In this document: positions 9,691 through 17,753 of the stretch, in pieces
How the letters are laid out: every line of letters starts with the position of its first letter
Position numbering within the stretch: the stretch's first letter is position 1
From: Candidatus Schekmanbacteria bacterium
Lineage (GTDB): Bacteria; CSSED10-310; JACPHN01
Assembly (NCBI GenBank): GCA_016188575.1
Contig: JACPHN010000142.1
Location: 1-30,535 of the forward strand
DNA length: 30,535 nucleotides
Direction of reading: 5' to 3'
Translations under genes and position numbers: made by a program
Notes under the pieces: generated by a model
Database searches by the model: none
What the model saw: only the letters and a program-made list of their open reading frames with translations
What the model was told of the DNA's origin: nothing

Positions 9691-9722
9691 ATTGTTTCAA
9701 CCACAAGGAACTGGGTTGCAAT
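9691..9722 (+). promoter_or_regulatory. Hairpin covering the cas6 ribosome binding site and start
   Basis: ATTG(TTTC)AACC at 9691-9702 can pair with GGTT(G)CAAT at 9714-9722, placing the ribosome binding site AAGGAA in the loop and the A and T of the ATG in the stem. The segment begins GTTTCAA, a common start of CRISPR repeats, and Cas6 enzymes cut next to such hairpins. Self-regulation through this structure is speculation. Confidence 0.3.
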
Positions 9723-10722
9723 GCCCGTGACAACCGTGAATTCTCATCGTCTGCTGGCGTCAGGTCTGGAACAAGTCCGCTTCGCTTCATTGCAAGCGAC
9801 GATGTCGCTCGCGGCGCCTACGAGGCTGCCTCCGTATTTGGGCCCGTTGCTGCGGAGCTGCATAGGATCGGCTTTGAAGCGCCTGACGTGCGTGCTCCGA
9901 TGCGAGTCGGTCGATGCCTGCCCGATTCTGGGTCGCTGCGCGTATTCGTCACTGTTTGAGGTGCCTTCACGTGACGACGCATCACGCCCTCGGCTACCCT
10001 TGCCGATGATCCTGGCGCCGCCGCCCGCCGGCGAACCACCGTGCTCGCCGGTACGCGACTGCATCGACTTCGACGTCACGCTCGTCGGCAACGCGGTCGA
10101 CTTCCTCCCCCACCTCGTTGGCGCGATCATCGCATCGGGCGAGGCTGGCCTCGGTCCGGAGCGCATTGTCGCTTGCCTTGAGAGGGTCACGGCGCGTGCC
10201 CCGGGAGGTCGGTCCGAGCCGGTTTTCACGCTGCCGCGGGGATTTCGGGGCGACGTCTGTCCCACGCTTGGTCTCGACGATCTGCCGCCGCTCGACCTCG
10301 CCGGCGGCCTCAACCTCACCTTTCAGACGCCGCTGCGCCTGAGCGCGAAGCGGCGGCCTCCCCGCGACATCTCCTTCGCCGAGCTCGCGCGCGCGATCAT
10401 GCGCCGCGGCTCGGCGCTCGGCCGATACTGCTGCGGTGTCACCGTCGCGGCGGACTATCCCGCGCTCACCATGGCGGCGCGAGGCGTCGCGACGGTGGCG
10501 GCGGACCTCCGCCCCATCCACCTCTCGCGGTGGTCCTCCCGCCAGCAGCAGCGCCTGCCTCTGGACGGCCTGATCGGCACCATCAGCTTTGCTGGTGAAG
10601 CGCTCGCCGCCTTCGAACCGTGGATCAGGCTCGGGCAGCACGTGCACGTCGGCAAGGGAACGGTGATGGGCCTCGGGCGCTACGCGGCGATGCCATTGTC
10701 ATCGCGGGGAAGCGACCAGTGA
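9721..10722 (+). CDS. cas6: Cas6-family CRISPR RNA endoribonuclease (orphan)
   Basis: 333 residues, matching the Cas6 family of Pfam PF10040 (RAMP fold). Visible hallmarks are the N-terminal LPPYLGPLLRSCIGSALKRL segment, then four cysteines (about residues 57, 61, 67, 73) ending RCAYSSLFE, and near the C-terminus GLIGTISFAG followed by the glycine-rich loop HVGKGTVMGLGRY that binds RNA in RAMP proteins. Family members cut CRISPR precursor RNA at repeat hairpins in the cytoplasm. No CRISPR array or other cas gene is found in the window. Its stop codon overlaps the GTG of the CARF activator, so the two are coupled. Possible roles are serving a distant array in trans, or a CRISPR-independent RNA-processing job. 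Start: ATG 9721 with AAGGAA at 9705-9710. The family call is firm; the role is open. Confidence 0.8.
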   Translation: MPVTTVNSHRLLASGLEQVRFASLQATMSLAAPTRLPPYLGPLLRSCIGSALKRLTCVLRCESVDACPILGRCAYSSLFEVPSRDDASRPRLPLPMILAPPPAGEPPCSPVRDCIDFDVTLVGNAVDFLPHLVGAIIASGEAGLGPERIVACLERVTARAPGGRSEPVFTLPRGFRGDVCPTLGLDDLPPLDLAGGLNLTFQTPLRLSAKRRPPRDISFAELARAIMRRGSALGRYCCGVTVAADYPALTMAARGVATVAADLRPIHLSRWSSRQQQRLPLDGLIGTISFAGEALAAFEPWIRLGQHVHVGKGTVMGLGRYAAMPLSSRGSDQ

Positions 10723-12236
10723 GGAGCACGCTTGTGGCCTGGATCGGGGCCCAGGACCTCGCGGCTCCGCGCGCCAGCACGCCGGAGGATGCGGGGCCGA
10801 TCGCCGCAGCGTTGGACACGGGCGACTTCGCGCGCGTGGTCCTGCTCAGTGCATACCCGCCGCCGGCAGCCGCGGCCTATGTGAGCTGGCTTCAGACCCG
10901 CCATGAGCTGCCCGTGCGCCTCGAGCTCGTGTCGCTGTCTTCTCCCACCGAGTATGGCGAGATTTTCCGCGCCGCAGACGCGCTTGTGGAGCAACTGACG
11001 GCCGCGCTACCGGCGCCGCGGCTCACGTTTCATCTCAGCCCTGGAACACCTGCCATGGCCGCCGTCTGGATCCTGCTGGCGAAGACGCGCTACAGGGCGG
11101 ACCTCATCGAGTCTTCACGCCAGCACGGGGTGCGCGCGGTCCACATTCCGTTCGATATCGCCGCGGAATTCATCGCCGGCGGCAGCGACAGCAGCGAAGC
11201 AAAAGGAGCTCAGTGGACGGTCGACCACCCGCCGGAAATCGCCAGTTTCGGCGACATCATTTTCCGTGGAGGACCGATGGCGGCGGTCGTCGATCGCGCG
11301 CGCCGCGTCGCTGCGCACAGCGTGCCGGTGTTGATCGAGGGGGAATCAGGGACGGGCAAGGAGCTGCTCGCCCGCGCCATACATCGTGCCAGCCCGCGTG
11401 GCAGCGAGCTGCTCGTCGCCATCAACTGCGGAGCGATTCCCGAGGATCTCTTCGAGGCGGAGATGTTCGGCCACGAGCGGGGTTCGTTCACCGGCGCGGA
11501 TCAATCCCGGCCGGGGTTCTTCGAGGAGGCCGCGGGCGGGACGTTGTTTCTGGATGAGGTCGGCGAGCTGTCGACGGCGGGACAGGCAAAGCTCCTGCGC
11601 GCCATTGAGGACAGAGCTGTCCGCCGCGTGGGCGGTCGCGGTTCGCGCGCCATTGACGTCCGAGTCATCGCGGCAACCCATCGCGACCTGCTCGAGGAAG
11701 TCCAGCGCGGTCTGTTCCGCGACGATCTGTACTATCGCCTGGGGGTCGCCGTGCTGCGGCTGCCGCCGCTGCGCAAACGCAGAGGCGACCTCGGCCCGCT
11801 CATCGGCGCGCTGCTGCAGCGCATCCGGGCGGAAACCGCGCCGGCCGCGCATGTCGTCACCGAGCTGAGCCCTGGTGCCCGCCAGATGCTGCTCAACCAT
11901 CCATGGCCGGGCAACGTGCGCGAGCTGCTCAATACCCTCTGGCGAACTGCGATCTGGACCCGCGGTCCGCGGATCGAGCGCAAGGACGTCGAAGCCGCGC
12001 TGCTGCGACCGGCACCGCACGAAGAGCAGATTCTCAATCGTTCCCTAGGCGCCGACTTCGACCTGCGCGAGGTGCTGGCGGCGGTGGCGCGCCACTACCT
12101 GTCCAGGGCGATGCGCGAGAGCAGTGGCAACAAGACCAACGCCGCCGCGGCGCTCGGTCTGCCGAGCTACCAGACGCTGTCGAACTGGCTCGGCAAGTTC
12201 GGAGTCACCGCGGCAGGGGCGATCGCTGACGAGTGA
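10719..12236 (+). CDS. RtcR-like CARF domain plus sigma-54 AAA+ transcriptional activator
   Basis: 505 residues from GTG 10719, which overlaps the cas6 TGA (GTGA); GTG 10734, with GAGGAG upstream, is an alternative. Residues 1-150 form a Rossmann-like CARF domain of the RtcR kind: strand TLVAWIG, then FHLSPGTPAMAAVWILLAKTRY, which parallels the 'ITTGTHVAQICWFLLAEARY' part of E. coli RtcR. Residues 180-420 are a sigma-54 activator AAA+ domain: Walker A GESGTGKE, the sigma-54 contact loop as GSFTGA instead of GAFTGA, Walker B TLFLDE, and HPWPGNVREL. A Fis-type helix-turn-helix closes the protein (KTNAAAALGLPSYQTLSNWL). CARF domains bind cyclic oligoadenylates or other RNA-derived ligands, so this should be a ligand-gated activator of sigma-54 promoters. 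It is coupled to cas6, and a strong sigma-54 promoter lies upstream at 7855. Confidence 0.8.
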   Translation: MRSTLVAWIGAQDLAAPRASTPEDAGPIAAALDTGDFARVVLLSAYPPPAAAAYVSWLQTRHELPVRLELVSLSSPTEYGEIFRAADALVEQLTAALPAPRLTFHLSPGTPAMAAVWILLAKTRYRADLIESSRQHGVRAVHIPFDIAAEFIAGGSDSSEAKGAQWTVDHPPEIASFGDIIFRGGPMAAVVDRARRVAAHSVPVLIEGESGTGKELLARAIHRASPRGSELLVAINCGAIPEDLFEAEMFGHERGSFTGADQSRPGFFEEAAGGTLFLDEVGELSTAGQAKLLRAIEDRAVRRVGGRGSRAIDVRVIAATHRDLLEEVQRGLFRDDLYYRLGVAVLRLPPLRKRRGDLGPLIGALLQRIRAETAPAAHVVTELSPGARQMLLNHPWPGNVRELLNTLWRTAIWTRGPRIERKDVEAALLRPAPHEEQILNRSLGADFDLREVLAAVARHYLSRAMRESSGNKTNAAAALGLPSYQTLSNWLGKFGVTAAGAIADE

Positions 12237-12504
12237 TTGTGCGCGGAGGTGGCGCCCGAAGTGACCGGGGTGGACTGCCACGCCGTTTCCATCCTCTTCT
12301 CCGAGAAGCAGCCCGGAGGTGAGGCCCGGCAGTAGTGGGAGGCGGTGATGAGGCGACCGTGGGCTCATCAGCTCCGCCCTTCACGGGTTGCGCCACGGGT
12401 TTGTTCGGTGCCCGCTACAGGAAGGCCGATTTACCCGACGCCAAAACGTACGGCAAGCTCGCCGGGGTTCACCGCCCTTGTCGTAGTTTTCCCGCCGCGC
12501 GGGA
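12237..12504 (+). other. Intergenic stretch without a gene
   Basis: No convincing gene, CRISPR-like repeat or strong sigma-54 site between the CARF activator and the promoter of the defence module. A GG-N10-GC match near 12399-12413 has poor flanking bases and is not counted. Confidence 0.4.
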
Positions 12505-12533
12505 TTGACTCGCCGCCACGCTGCCTGTAGTGT
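12505..12533 (+). promoter_or_regulatory. Sigma-70-type promoter of the PHP-ATPase operon
   Basis: TTGACT (12505-12510) and TAGTGT (12528-12533) are separated by 17 bases. Transcription would start near 12540, about 20 bases before the ATG at 12562. The module therefore appears to be transcribed independently of cas6 and the CARF gene. Confidence 0.6.
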
Positions 12534-12561
12534 CGACGTTCAAAAAAGAGTGGATCGACAG

Positions 12562-15252
12562 ATGATGTGGCCCGATCCGATCCGTGGCGCCGCGGCCTTG
12601 CCTCATGGCGCGAGTTTCTACAAGTGCGCGCTCCAGGTAAACCCGCACCACTATTCCCGAACCTTCCGCGGGCAGAACCAGCCCATGAGCGGGCCGGAAT
12701 ACGTCACCGCGGTCGTCGCGAAGTGTGTCGAGATAGGCATCGGCGTCATCGCCATCACCGACCACAACGACGTCGGCCAGGTGGACGCCTTCCGCGAGGA
12801 AGGCAAGAAATACGGAGTTCACGTGCTCCCCGGCTTCGAGCTCGCCTCGCAGGAAGGGGTCCATGTGTTGTGCATCTACCCGCCGGACTGCCCGGTCGAG
12901 AAGCTCACCAGATACCTGGGCGAATTCGGAATCCGGGATGTGGAACCGTCCTCGGACCTTTCGAACAAGCCCTTCGCCGAGCTGCTCCGGTGCGTGCGCG
13001 ACCAGGGTGGGATCACCATCGCGGCGCACGTCACGCAGGACAATGGCCTGCTGAGCTTGCTCCAGGGTCAGGCCAGGATGAACGCCTGGAAGGACAGGAA
13101 TCTCCTCGCCGTACAGATTCCCGGTTCCATCGACAACGCTCCAGACGACAAACGGCCTATTCTTCGGAACCAGAACCCGGACTATCGTCGCGTGCCGGCG
13201 GCCGGGACGAAGCTTGCAATCGCCGTTGTCAATGCGAAGGACGTCGCGCAGCCGGGCGACTTGGCAGACCCTTCGGCAACTTGCTGGCTCAAGATGTCTG
13301 AGATTAGCGTCGAGGGCCTGCGGCAGGCCTTCCTGGATCCCGATTCACGGATCCGACTCGGCAATGATCCGGTACCCGAACAGCACATGGAGCTCCTTGC
13401 CATCGCCTGGCAGGGAGGCTTTCTCGATGGCGCCGCCATTCGCTTCAACGAGAACCTGAACGTGCTGGTCGGCGGTCGGGGGACCGGGAAGTCCACGGTG
13501 ATCGAGAGCCTGCGATATGTTCTGGGCCTGGAGCCGTTGGGCGATGAGGCTCGAAAGGCGCACGAGGGCATTCTCCGCCAGGTCCTGCGGAGCGGGACCA
13601 AGGTCTCGCTATTGATCCGGTCGGACGGCCCGGCGAAGCGCGAGTATCTGGTCGAGCGAACCTACCCGAATCCCGCACGCGTGCGAGACGAATCCGGCGC
13701 AGTGCTTGCCCTAGTGCCATCGGACATCGTTACCGGTCTGGAGGTGTACGGCCAGCACGAGATTTCCGAGCTCACCAAGAGTCCGGAGAAGCTCACTCGA
13801 CTTCTTCAGCGCTTCGTGCAAATGGACCCGGCGCTGGGACGACGGAAAACAGAGCTGCAGCGGGAGCTGGAGCAGTCCCGCTCGCGAATCCTGGACGTTC
13901 GCAGCGAGTTGAAACTGGTCACGGAGCATTTGGGATCTCTGCCCGCTCTGGAGGAGACGTTGAAACGCTTCCAGGAGGCGGGGCTGGAGGACCGGCTCAA
14001 GGACCAGAGCTTGCTCGTGCGTGAGGAGCGAGTGTTGAAGACGGCGTCCGAGCGTGTGGGGCCCGTGCGGCTGTGGCTCGAACAGCTCCGCCGCAATCTC
14101 CCGATCGACCGCGCGTTTCTCGCCGCCAAGGCCCTCGAAGACTTGCCGGGCAAGGAAATCCTGGCGGCGGCCGACAAGGCCCTCGATCGCCTCAACAGCG
14201 ATCTCGAGGCGGCGGCTTTGGCGATTGCGCAGGCCGTCGACCTTGCCGATCAGGGCCTGAGCAGCGTCCGAACGGCATGGCAGCCCCGCGAGAGTGCAGC
14301 TCAGGCGGCATACGAGAAGATCCTCCGGGAGTTGCAGAAGTCGAAGGTGGACGGCGAGGAGCTCATCCGCGTGCGGCGCCAGATCGAGGATCTGCGTCCG
14401 CGCCGGGAGCGAGACGTCGCACTCCGTCGCGACGAGAAGGAACACGCCGCCCATCGGCGCAAGCTCCTCGCCGAATGGGAGGACTTGAAAGCCGACGAGC
14501 ACCGCAAGCTCGAACAGGCCGCCAGGAAGGTGAGCAAGCACCTCCGTGATCGCGTCCGTGTGCAGGTGACATTCGCGGGAAACAGGGAGCCCCTGTTCGA
14601 TCTCCTTCGCGAGGTCGGCGGGCGGCTTTCCGAGACGATCGATTCCCTCAGACGGCGAGACACCCTCTCCTTGTCCGAGCTGGCAGATGCGTGGCGTTCC
14701 GGCGCCGCGGTACTGGCATCGAAGTTCGGCATCCCTTCGGGGCAGGCCGACAGAATGGCACAGGCCGGTCCGGAGCTCGTCATGCGTGCCGAGGAGTTGG
14801 ACCTCGTTCCAACCACGGCGATCGAGCTAAACGTGTCTCCTGAGGGGCAGTCTGCCTCGTGGCAGTCCCTTGACAATCTCTCGACCGGGCAGAAGGCGAC
14901 GGCCGTGCTGCTCTTGCTCCTGCTCGAGTGCGCGGCGCCGCTTGTCGTCGACCAGCCCGAGGACGATCTGGACAACCGCTTCATTACGGAAGGCATCGTC
15001 CCGAAAATGCGGGAAGAGAAACGCCGGCGCCAGTTCATTTTCGCGACCCACAACGCCAACATTCCGGTTCTTGGCGACGCAGAGCTTATCGTTGGACTCA
15101 CCGCGGCCGGCGACGCGACTCAAGGCAAGGCGGAAATCCCGACGAGCCAGATGGGCTCCATCGACTCTTCTCGAGTTCGCGAGCTCGTCGAAGAGTTGCT
15201 CGAGGGTGGGAAAGAGGCCTTCGAAATGCGGCGGCTCAAGTACGGATTCTGA
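12562..15252 (+). CDS. PHP domain plus SMC/RecF-like ATPase, Ppl/TrlF-like defence protein
   Basis: About 896 residues. Residues 20-290 resemble a PHP phosphoesterase: IAITDHND, VHVLPGFELAS and GGITIAAHV are metal-ligand motifs. The first motif, normally HxH, reads ALQVN, so one metal site may be lost. Residues 300-320 carry Walker A (VLVGGRGTGKST); a long coiled coil (about 430-730) follows, then an ABC-type signature LSTGQKA (about 773), Walker B LVVDQPEDDLDN and an H-loop FATHNAN, the order of SMC/RecF-type ATPases. This is the architecture annotated as 'TrlF family AAA-like ATPase' and of the antiphage gene Ppl (polymerase/histidinol phosphatase-like). It probably senses DNA or phage structures and cleaves a nucleic acid or nucleotide. 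ATG 12562 is chosen from the promoter position; the ribosome site is weak. The AlbA_2 gene follows after 10 bases. Confidence 0.8.
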   Translation: MMWPDPIRGAAALPHGASFYKCALQVNPHHYSRTFRGQNQPMSGPEYVTAVVAKCVEIGIGVIAITDHNDVGQVDAFREEGKKYGVHVLPGFELASQEGVHVLCIYPPDCPVEKLTRYLGEFGIRDVEPSSDLSNKPFAELLRCVRDQGGITIAAHVTQDNGLLSLLQGQARMNAWKDRNLLAVQIPGSIDNAPDDKRPILRNQNPDYRRVPAAGTKLAIAVVNAKDVAQPGDLADPSATCWLKMSEISVEGLRQAFLDPDSRIRLGNDPVPEQHMELLAIAWQGGFLDGAAIRFNENLNVLVGGRGTGKSTVIESLRYVLGLEPLGDEARKAHEGILRQVLRSGTKVSLLIRSDGPAKREYLVERTYPNPARVRDESGAVLALVPSDIVTGLEVYGQHEISELTKSPEKLTRLLQRFVQMDPALGRRKTELQRELEQSRSRILDVRSELKLVTEHLGSLPALEETLKRFQEAGLEDRLKDQSLLVREERVLKTASERVGPVRLWLEQLRRNLPIDRAFLAAKALEDLPGKEILAAADKALDRLNSDLEAAALAIAQAVDLADQGLSSVRTAWQPRESAAQAAYEKILRELQKSKVDGEELIRVRRQIEDLRPRRERDVALRRDEKEHAAHRRKLLAEWEDLKADEHRKLEQAARKVSKHLRDRVRVQVTFAGNREPLFDLLREVGGRLSETIDSLRRRDTLSLSELADAWRSGAAVLASKFGIPSGQADRMAQAGPELVMRAEELDLVPTTAIELNVSPEGQSASWQSLDNLSTGQKATAVLLLLLLECAAPLVVDQPEDDLDNRFITEGIVPKMREEKRRRQFIFATHNANIPVLGDAELIVGLTAAGDATQGKAEIPTSQMGSIDSSRVRELVEELLEGGKEAFEMRRLKYGF

Positions 15253-15262
15253 GGAGCTTCCC

Positions 15263-16498
15263 ATGACCAAGACGGAGCTGCTCGAGCTCATCAGAAACGG
15301 CGAGAGCTCCGGCGTAGAGTTCAAGCGCGACACGATTGAGACCCGTGCGCTCGCCAAGGAACTGGTGGCATTCGCCAATCTCGAGGGTGGGCAGGTGCTG
15401 CTTGGCGTCGAGGACGATGGAACCCTGCTTGGCCTGACGCGCGCCAAGCTCGAGGAGTGGGTCATGACGGCCTGTCGAGACAAGATCCGGCCGGAAGTGA
15501 TTCCGTACTTCGAGGTGGTCAGGGACGTCGAATCCGGGAGGGATGTGGCGGTGGTTCGAGTCGGCCGTGGTTGGGGCGTCCACCATGTCTGGCACGACAA
15601 CCACCGCACGTACTACATCCGCGTGGGCACGGTGAGTCGCGAGGCCAGCGCCGAGGAGCTGGAACGGCTGTTCCAGCAGCGGGGCGCCTTCCGACTCGAG
15701 TTGCGTCCAGTGTCCGGGACTACGATGCTCGACCTGGACCGGCGGCGCCTGCGCGACTACTTCAGTCGTGTCCGCGGGCAGGAGACGCCTGCCGACAACG
15801 ACGGTGTCGGATGGCGAACAATCCTGATCAACACGGAGCTCCTGGCAGAGGAGTCACCGGTCCCTCCTGCTACCGTCGCGGGCCTGCTTCTCTTCGGCAC
15901 GAATCCCAAGCGGTATCTTCCCCAGGCTGGTGTCGATGCGGCGGCATTCGCGGGTCTCGAGAAGGAATACGCGGCCAGGGAACGCATCTCCCTGCGTGGA
16001 CCGTTGGTACCGCTTTTCGGTTCCTCGGGCCTCGTCGAGAACGGTCTTGTCGAGCAGGCGGTGGAGCTCGTCAGGCGGCACACCGGGGTAACCGCCACCC
16101 TGGAGGGCGGTGCACGCCGCGAAGAGCGATGGGAGTACCCCGACGAAGCGATTCGGGAGGCCATCGTCAACGCTCTCGTGCATCGTGACTACTTGCTGTC
16201 CGCTACTGATGTGGAGCTCACCGTCTTCGCGGACCGTGTCGAGATCGTCTCTCCTGGGCGTCTGCCCAACGGAATCACGCCGGCGCGAATGAGGACGGGA
16301 TGCCGCGCCGCACGCAATCAACTTCTCAAGGACGTCATGCGCGATTATGGGTATCTGGAGCACATGGGAATGGGCGTGCCCCGCAAGATCATCAAGTCGA
16401 TGCTCGAGCACAACGGCACGCAACCGGACCTGATCGAGGAGGGTGAGCGATTCCTGGTCCGACTCTGGAAGAAAGTACCTGGAGAGCGGACAGAATGA
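15263..16498 (+). CDS. AlbA_2-domain ATP-binding protein (Schlafen-like)
   Basis: 411 residues. The N-terminus is an AlbA_2 domain (ESSGVEFKRD at about 14-23, then FANLEGGQVLLGVEDDG), a fold shared with Schlafen proteins and often linked to nucleic-acid binding or cleavage. The C-terminal part has a degenerate GHKL/HATPase-like region (EAIVNALVHRDY, then VELTVFADRVEIVSPGRLPNGIT). Proteins of this two-domain type are often annotated as transcriptional regulators but recur in antiphage islands. GAGGAG overlaps the stop codon of the PHP-ATPase gene and gives a good site for ATG 15263, so the two genes form an operon. A probable PglZ remnant follows 28 bases later. It is probably the second component of the same defence module; its exact activity cannot be read from the sequence. 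Confidence 0.8.
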   Translation: MTKTELLELIRNGESSGVEFKRDTIETRALAKELVAFANLEGGQVLLGVEDDGTLLGLTRAKLEEWVMTACRDKIRPEVIPYFEVVRDVESGRDVAVVRVGRGWGVHHVWHDNHRTYYIRVGTVSREASAEELERLFQQRGAFRLELRPVSGTTMLDLDRRRLRDYFSRVRGQETPADNDGVGWRTILINTELLAEESPVPPATVAGLLLFGTNPKRYLPQAGVDAAAFAGLEKEYAARERISLRGPLVPLFGSSGLVENGLVEQAVELVRRHTGVTATLEGGARREERWEYPDEAIREAIVNALVHRDYLLSATDVELTVFADRVEIVSPGRLPNGITPARMRTGCRAARNQLLKDVMRDYGYLEHMGMGVPRKIIKSMLEHNGTQPDLIEEGERFLVRLWKKVPGERTE

Positions 16499-16526
16499 GG
16501 CCGTCCAGGCGCGTCAGTGGGACGAG

Positions 16527-16742
16527 ATGAGCGACACGGAGCCACTTCGCGGGTGGCTGCAGCGCGAGATTCGAGGCGTGCTCGACCGTGGGGTCACACC
16601 GCCTCCACCGCCTCCACCGCCTCCACTGGTGCTCTGGTGCGATCCCGACCATGCTTGGCGGGAGCTGCTGGCGGCGGCCACGGCGTCGGGGGTTTACCGT
16701 AGTCGGCGCGGCGCGCTTGGCAACCCGAGCGCGACTGTGTAG
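16527..16742 (+). pseudogene. Truncated PglZ-like gene (N-terminal fragment)
   Basis: 71 residues from ATG 16527. The start LRGWLQREIRGVLDRG, a proline run, then LVLWCDPDHAWRELLAAATASG resembles the N-terminus of PglZ-domain proteins (alkaline-phosphatase superfamily) found in BREX/Pgl-type defence loci, which are normally several hundred residues long. After 'ATASG' the sequence loses resemblance and stops at 16742, inside the promoter of the next, unrelated ABC transporter gene. This looks like deletion of the rest of pglZ and probably of further genes. It follows the AlbA_2 gene by 28 bases and extends the same operon. The PglZ assignment rests on a short segment. Confidence 0.5.
16599..16625 (+). 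repeat. Three tandem copies of CCGCCTCCA
   Basis: A perfect 9-base microsatellite that encodes most of the proline run in the PglZ-like fragment. Slippage here would keep the frame. Confidence 0.7.
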
Positions 16743-16772: not shown

Positions 16773-17753
16773 ATGCCGATCGCTGCAACTGCCACATCAA
16801 CAGCGCGAGCCGTCAACCTGAAGGTTGAGGGGCTATGCAAGCGCTTTGGGAGCTTCGTGGCCGTGGACGATCTCGCGCTCGAGGTCTATGAAGGCGAGAT
16901 TTTTGGCTTCCTGGGCCCCAATGGCGCGGGCAAGACGACCTCGATCAACATGATGTGCGGCCTCCTTCGGCCTGACGCCGGGCAGACGCTGGTGTACGGC
17001 AGGCCGTCCGCGGGTGATGACCCCGAGGTGCGGGCGCGCGTCGGCATGTGCCCACAAAACGTCGTGCTGTGGCCGCGACTCACCTGCATCGAGCAACTGG
17101 AGTTTGTCGGCCAGGCGTACGGAGTGCCGCGCAAGACAGCTCGGCGGCGCGCCGAGGCGCTGCTCGAGGTCATCGGTCTCGCTGACAAGCGACGCTGGCT
17201 CGCCAGGACCCTGTCGGGCGGCATGCAACGCCGCTTGAGCATCGCGATGGCGCTCGTTCACGAACCCGATATCGTCGTTCTCGACGAACCCGAGGCCGGG
17301 CTCGATCCGCAGAGTCGCGTGCTGGTGCGCGAGCACATCGTCGCGCTCGCGCGCCAACAGAAAAAAACCGTCATCGTCACGACGCACAACATGGACGAGG
17401 CCGAGCGCGTCGCGGACCGCGTGGCGATCATCGACCATGGTCGGCTTCTGGAGCTCGACACGCCCGCCGGTCTCAAGCGCCGGGTTGGGCAGGGCGACAC
17501 TCTGGAGCTGGTGGTGAGCGCCGCGAACCGCAGCCTCACGACCAGCGAGCGAGAACGGCTCGCGCAAGCGTATCCTGCGGCGCACGTCACCGCCGACCAC
17601 ATCGTGCTCAATGAGCGCGCCATCGTCGACAGGCTCCCGGAAATCCTCGATGGCGTCAAGCAGTTGGGATTCGGCGTGGCGAGCGTGCAACTGCGCGCGA
17701 GCACGCTCGAGGACGTGTTCCTTTCGCTTACCGGGAGGAGCCTGCGCGAATGA
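16773..17753 (+). CDS. ABC-2 type transporter, ATP-binding subunit
   Basis: 326 residues, normal for the family. It shows Walker A GPNGAGKTT, Q-loop CPQNVVLWPRLT, signature LSGGMQRRL, Walker B IVVLDEPEAGLDP and an H-loop in VIVTTHNMDEAERVAD. A C-terminal regulatory extension of about 90 residues (from RRVGQGDTLELVV) is typical of drug or lipid exporters of the DrrA/CcmA kind. GAGGG at 16761-16765 serves ATG 16773. It powers export by the overlapping permease. The substrate (antibiotic, lipid or polysaccharide) cannot be told from the sequence. Confidence 0.92.
   Translation: MPIAATATSTARAVNLKVEGLCKRFGSFVAVDDLALEVYEGEIFGFLGPNGAGKTTSINMMCGLLRPDAGQTLVYGRPSAGDDPEVRARVGMCPQNVVLWPRLTCIEQLEFVGQAYGVPRKTARRRAEALLEVIGLADKRRWLARTLSGGMQRRLSIAMALVHEPDIVVLDEPEAGLDPQSRVLVREHIVALARQQKKTVIVTTHNMDEAERVADRVAIIDHGRLLELDTPAGLKRRVGQGDTLELVVSAANRSLTTSERERLAQAYPAAHVTADHIVLNERAIVDRLPEILDGVKQLGFGVASVQLRASTLEDVFLSLTGRSLRE

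Follow-up and report, generated by a model that had tools for sequence, protein, structure and literature searches.

The DNA analysed here (the window, a whole 30.5-kb contig from a 9.2-Mb genome) carries two adjacent genes, trlF and an AlbA_2 gene of Schlafen type, which by gene anatomy and relationship are very probably an accessory cassette orphaned from a BREX-1 locus. In this account brxABC, pglX, pglZ beyond its first ~57 codons and brxL would have been lost, with both cassette genes left intact (Table 1). The explanation that we favour as a whole, with moderate confidence, couples this origin to a function, namely an orphaned BREX-1 cassette encoding a Schlafen RNase backup licensed by TrlF. 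Its mechanistic part is drawn by homology and is tentative, with somewhat less than an even chance of being right.

Table 1. Features of the cassette and its surroundings (positions within the window)
Feature	Position	Strand	Description or basis
Cas6	9721-10722		upstream of trlF; domain search
CARF-AAA-HTH RtcR-like sigma-54 activator	10620-12236		upstream of trlF; domain search
trlF	12562..15252	+	896-aa TrlF-family protein, intact ORF
PHP-fold domain, altered metal site	12613..13377	+	alignment of 28 homologues; fold search
AlbA_2/Schlafen gene (SLFN_AlbA_2)	15263..16498	+	411 aa, intact; PF04326 and PF13749 above cut-off
Candidate Schlafen RNase triad E14, E19, D52	15302..15418	+	conservation in alignment; SLFN13 triad
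Broken pglZ 5' remnant, codons 1-57	16527..16697	+	46% identity over 57 aa to L082 PglZ
ABC transporter ATP-binding protein, outside module	16773..17753	+	ORF list

The two cassette genes and a short third ORF lie on one strand with intergenic gaps of 10 and 28 bp, which fits the operonic order PHP-ATPase, AlbA_2, PglZ-like given in a preliminary description of this DNA. The promoter assigned to the module in that description found no support, as a search of 12200-12620 confined to sigma-70-type promoters returned no match. GC3 of the TrlF and AlbA_2 genes (0.79 and 0.76) is inside the range of the neighbouring genes, and base composition therefore does not point to recent transfer. The adjoining Cas6 and CARF genes are present as described. 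The defence island proposed on this basis is nevertheless thin: cas6 and the CARF gene are near, but no CRISPR array was found in the window, including beside cas6, and the further window genes tested (encoding a TonB receptor, a TPR protein, a cytochrome, an acyl-CoA dehydrogenase and others) are ordinary. Besides Cas6 and the CARF-AAA-HTH activator (9721-12236) no further cas gene was noticed in the window. Elsewhere in the window, at 1105-1258, a 42-nt unit repeated three times in tandem encodes a proline-rich repeat within a small ORF that precedes the TonB-dependent receptor.

The third ORF (71 aa, 16527-16742) is read as the beginning of a BREX pglZ gene on the strength of its alignment to the PglZ of an Acidobacteria locus, L082, its score relative to shuffled sequence, and the point at which similarity stops. 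Its first 57 residues match the L082 PglZ N-terminus (E 7e-14), with LVLWCDPxxxWRxLL common to both, and the Smith-Waterman score is 130 against 34 +/- 5 for 500 shuffles (maximum 59). After codon ~57 the similarity ends and the frame continues to a stop at 16740-16742. The earlier identification of a PglZ-like fragment is thereby borne out. Pfam did not detect PglZ in the 71-aa ORF because the PglZ domain sits further downstream in the protein. No plasmid match to the stub was obtained by tblastn, and no BREX-gene similarity was found between the stub and the ABC transporter gene. A further possibility, that the stub copies one of the PglZ proteins from this genome used for comparison (C209, C230), was rejected for want of convincing similarity.

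The origin of the cassette is best seen by comparison with L082, a metagenome-assembled genome locus that is the closest relative among the best 80 TrlF loci (73% identity for TrlF and 76% for AlbA_2). At the DNA level the two are 71% identical over 3.9 kb, ending at the cassette edges, and their TrlFs are sisters in the TrlF tree (SH-aLRT 100). The L082 gene order is brxC, pglX-M, a first TrlF/AlbA_2 pair, pglX-S, a second pair that is the sister of the window's, pglZ and brxL. L082 therefore qualifies as BREX-1, with brxC, pglX, pglZ and brxL around the pair, and the window locus fails the same test (brxC, pglX, complete pglZ, brxL) as its contig has the pglZ 5' stub only. No BREX similarity was found in the window flanks, and the BREX homologues that the rest of the genome does contain are parts of other BREX loci. 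A hidden pglX or other BREX remnant upstream of the pair was rejected when blastx of 12237-12561 returned none; with no BREX trace in this stretch the left break is inferred, which counts against the favoured explanation. The first L082 pair shows 26% (TrlF) and 33% (AlbA_2) identity and has a canonical PHP HxH. Two tandem TrlF/AlbA_2 pairs per locus were seen both in L082 (2080-12916) and in L214; the L082 TrlFs, one with canonical HxH and the other with Q/N, look as if two specificities had been stacked.

The ATPase of the cassette is a TrlF, as it passes the NCBIfam TrlF model NF045780 (502 bits, cut-off 350) over the full profile (1-944). The preliminary description had called it Ppl/TrlF-like. 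Identity with Ppl was rejected at 178 bits against the 1000-bit cut-off of NF042955, and so the reported activity of Ppl does not transfer to it. Ppl, a single-gene anti-phage PHP-ATPase, does share the combination of PHP and SMC-like ATPase and a C-terminal region like that of TrlF, but the window TrlF stays below that cut-off and has a gene partner. In the AlphaFold model (pLDDT 86) residues 18-272 adopt a PHP fold (EndoQ PHP domain, Z 19.0, rmsd 3.6 over 222 residues) and residues 276-881 an SMC/Rad50-like ABC ATPase head with coiled coil (head match Z 22). The ATPase motifs G304-T312 (Walker A), LSTGQ, DQPEDDLDN and THNAN have key residues invariant in 28 of 28 relatives, and the Walker A, signature, Walker B, H-loop and head fold expected of an SMC/Rad50-type ABC ATPase are all present. 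In the PHP domain the HxH metal ligands of motif I are absent, replaced by Q25/N27 in all 28 homologues, while D67, H68, E93, H101, H156 and D227 are kept. The loss of motif I makes nuclease activity of TrlF uncertain.

The partner had been described as an AlbA_2 ATPase, of which the AlbA_2 domain stands (PF04326, E 1.4e-16, 61.6 bits against a cut-off of 25.3; PF13749, E 5.1e-21) and the ATPase class does not, since the C-terminal part has a GHKL/histidine-kinase rather than an AAA ATPase fold. In the AlphaFold model (pLDDT 88.5) residues 1-110 resemble the Schlafen C-lobe, with matches of Z 9-11 that include SLFN5, SLFN13 (Z 9.4) and the SAMD9 tRNase (Z 10.7). Residues 221-409 match histidine kinases at Z ~10, and the whole model matches DIP2311 (3lmm, Z 21). 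An E-x4-E...D triad is present, in which E14/E19/D52 correspond in order and roughly in spacing to E205, E210 and D248 of the SLFN13 triad (PMC5862951). Across an alignment of 36 sequences E14 is conserved in all 36, and E19 and D52 in 35 each. From triad and fold the protein is a likely, candidate Schlafen RNase, a role read from predicted models and shared folds.

How general the pair is was assessed on the best 80 TrlF loci taken from a scan of 84,980 species genomes. AlbA_2 lies directly 3' of TrlF at 70 of the 74 testable loci. With domains called on representatives, the neighbours are DUF1156/DUF499/SNF2 systems (BR) at 13 loci, Res and/or Mod at ~9, HsdM at 3 and BREX at 4 (3 of them with PglZ right after AlbA_2). 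The other 51 of the 80 have no recognised host, a figure that includes loci near contig ends or with short flanks and depends on our own reference set for host detection; it counts against the favoured explanation, in that dependence of the pair on a host system is only a possibility. The TrlF tree contains 8 or more switches of host kind. Distances among the TrlFs are correlated with those among the AlbA_2 proteins (Mantel r 0.67, where 999 permutations reached 0.23 at most). The pair is therefore portable. Gene neighbourhoods show it inserted in BREX-1 and, on predicted domains, in three or more further kinds of methylation-based defence system.

Individual loci illustrate this portability. 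The order pglX-TrlF-AlbA_2-pglZ-brxL is found in L082, L210 (with two AlbA_2 genes), L213, L215, L217 and the V. parahaemolyticus plasmid pVPSD2016-2 (L009), and TrlF-AlbA_2-pglZ also in L092. L082 and L009 are thus BREX-1 loci with accessory genes in the pglX/pglZ slot, in which the pair, identically ordered, immediately precedes pglZ; the window stub is the start of that pglZ. All that the window keeps of such a locus is the pair plus ~57 codons of pglZ. An equivalent slot is used in the type I locus of Citrobacter plasmid pCFR-0b27 (L008; hsdM-hsdS-TrlF-AlbA_2-hsdR), where the host of the same cassette is a restriction system and not BREX. On a Klebsiella plasmid a solo TrlF follows brxL, which counts against a pair-based explanation. 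An archaeal plasmid locus (Halapricum, L172:8983-16704) places TrlF between genes for DUF1156 and DUF499 proteins and has a DUF262 protein next where AlbA_2 would be expected. In a second sample of 396 genomes evenly drawn from the phylum of L082, TrlF was above cut-off in 20; there were 16 pairs, 5 of them with PglZ next, and solo TrlFs also occur. L210, L213, L215 and L217 come from this sample. Among 8 genomes searched from the window's own phylum, including its own, no other carrier of TrlF was found at E 1e-30.

That the pair is inserted where modification genes give way to effector genes suggests a backup role when the host system is blocked. In the mechanism that we tentatively propose, TrlF would dimerise like SMC/Rad50 and spend ATP inspecting DNA, looking for free ends or for DNA left exposed by a blocked restriction or BREX host complex. 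The altered PHP domain may sense or process nucleic acid or a nucleotide. TrlF would then license the Schlafen RNase, otherwise held off, through its GHKL domain, and cleavage of tRNA or other RNA would halt translation as an abortive infection layer behind the primary system. The window pair would act alone, without a BREX host, as many relatives lacking a recognised host must. A broader form of this idea, in which TrlF and Schlafen constitute an uncharacterised, general 'restriction-failure' module, is doubtful. The two-gene cassette would then serve four or more unrelated methylation-based defences (BREX-1, DUF499/DUF1156, type I and Res/Mod systems) and would kill translation once a phage has blocked the host system, much as PARIS responds to Ocr, though with other components.

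The pair might instead be a two-gene defence that works on its own and recognises foreign DNA directly, with placement in BREX and restriction operons reflecting shared expression and co-transfer in defence islands. We regard this as rather unlikely, yet it is the most probable of the alternatives: it accommodates the loci with no recognised host, a Yersinia ruckeri plasmid on which the pair is flanked by transposon genes, and a window pair intact although BREX is lost. What it explains less well is the repeated position of the pair inside operons, in a slot with modification genes on one side and effector genes on the other (pglX/pglZ, hsdS/hsdR, DUF1156/DUF499), which is more specific than nearness.

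A less probable alternative makes AlbA_2-GHKL a DNA-binding regulator or antitoxin, and TrlF itself the nuclease or toxin. Several plasmids and solo subfamilies have TrlF but no AlbA_2, which implies that TrlF can act alone, and databases name AlbA_2 proteins 'RNA-binding' or RecG-related. However, the Schlafen triad is almost invariant in a fold that matches tRNase domains, and PHP motif I is lost in this TrlF clade. It is more improbable again that the cassette is a dead remnant, decaying as passenger DNA after BREX loss. Such decay would suit the absence from the window of all BREX genes other than the pglZ stub, and the lack of a promoter match upstream of the pair. Against it, neither ORF is truncated and no catalytic motif is missing, and the window TrlF branch is no longer than that of its intact sister (0.20 against 0.19 for L082). 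By these signs both window genes look maintained.

The preliminary description had raised the prospect of a three-part Ppl-AlbA_2-PglZ system. Its link to BREX was right, and intact loci with the PHP-ATPase, AlbA_2 and PglZ genes in this order exist (the seven listed above), but brxL comes after pglZ and pglX before the pair, so that loci of the L082 type are BREX-1 with the pair in the pglX/pglZ slot and not a new three-gene system. The description had also made its proposal depend on PglZ accompanying the pair widely. This failed among the close relatives (PglZ next in 3 of 70 with the pair), and in the phylum sample pairs lacking PglZ were the majority without being nearly universal. A separate three-gene system was therefore rejected, and it is highly improbable even though the order recurs, as every intact case with enough flank is part of BREX-1, PglZ is absent from most pairs and the ATPase fails the Ppl profile. 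On gene order the functional unit is, by prediction, the TrlF/AlbA_2 pair. The odd three-gene order is then explained as BREX plus a portable cassette.

The nearest published counterparts are Schlafen RNases with a C-terminal histidine-kinase domain, which the main text of Rakesh and Krishnan (2026, PMC12839542) reports from BREX/BR systems in at least 1017 taxa and describes as backup effectors. These Schlafen-histidine kinase-wHTH effectors have the Schlafen plus GHKL architecture and hosts in common with the window pair. They differ in that a term search of that main text returned no PHP, Ppl, AlbA or TrlF partner, and the pair studied here extends to type I and Res/Mod systems and to loci with no recognised host. 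PARIS, which the same text presents as answering Ocr as a backup for a blocked host system (PMC12839542), offers a works-like analogy, being an ABC ATPase and a separate RNase encoded by two adjacent, BREX-recruited genes (AriA, OLD-family; AriB, TOPRIM tRNase). The window TrlF is instead SMC/Rad50-like with PHP and its nuclease is Schlafen, not TOPRIM; membership of PARIS was rejected, since TrlF gave a weak AriA match of 34 bits and the partner matched no AriB model. Beside brxL in SXT/R391 elements lies a gene for a 'putative DNA repair protein' (PMC7251087), which, at a guess from the annotation, may be TrlF. Our literature search found nothing naming TrlF together with BREX. An ABC ATPase classification by Krishnan et al. 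from 2020 reportedly may describe PHP-ABC/Schlafen pairs, and could already cover the pair.

Together with the intact loci the pair provides a testbed for one abortive backup common to different restriction-type systems, and the window pair indicates that a backup can outlive its host system.

The same genome holds further BREX loci with their own slot contents. One (L011:2919-19837, C209) is a BREX-1 locus with brxA, brxC, split pglX, type A pglZ and brxL, whose pglX/pglZ slot is occupied by two ORFs, a short one for an AAA_21-like ATPase and one of 431 aa with no Pfam match, perhaps a broken ATPase-effector pair. A second BREX-1 locus (L193:2686-17560, C150) has a type B-like pglZ, a brxL split into two frames, and HEPN, ParA-like and AAA_16 proteins in the slot. 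Two BREX-2-like loci with PglY/BrxC-like, PglZ and BrxD-like genes (L012, C230; L013, C147) add to these, bringing the BREX-type loci of this genome to at least four, not counting the remnant.
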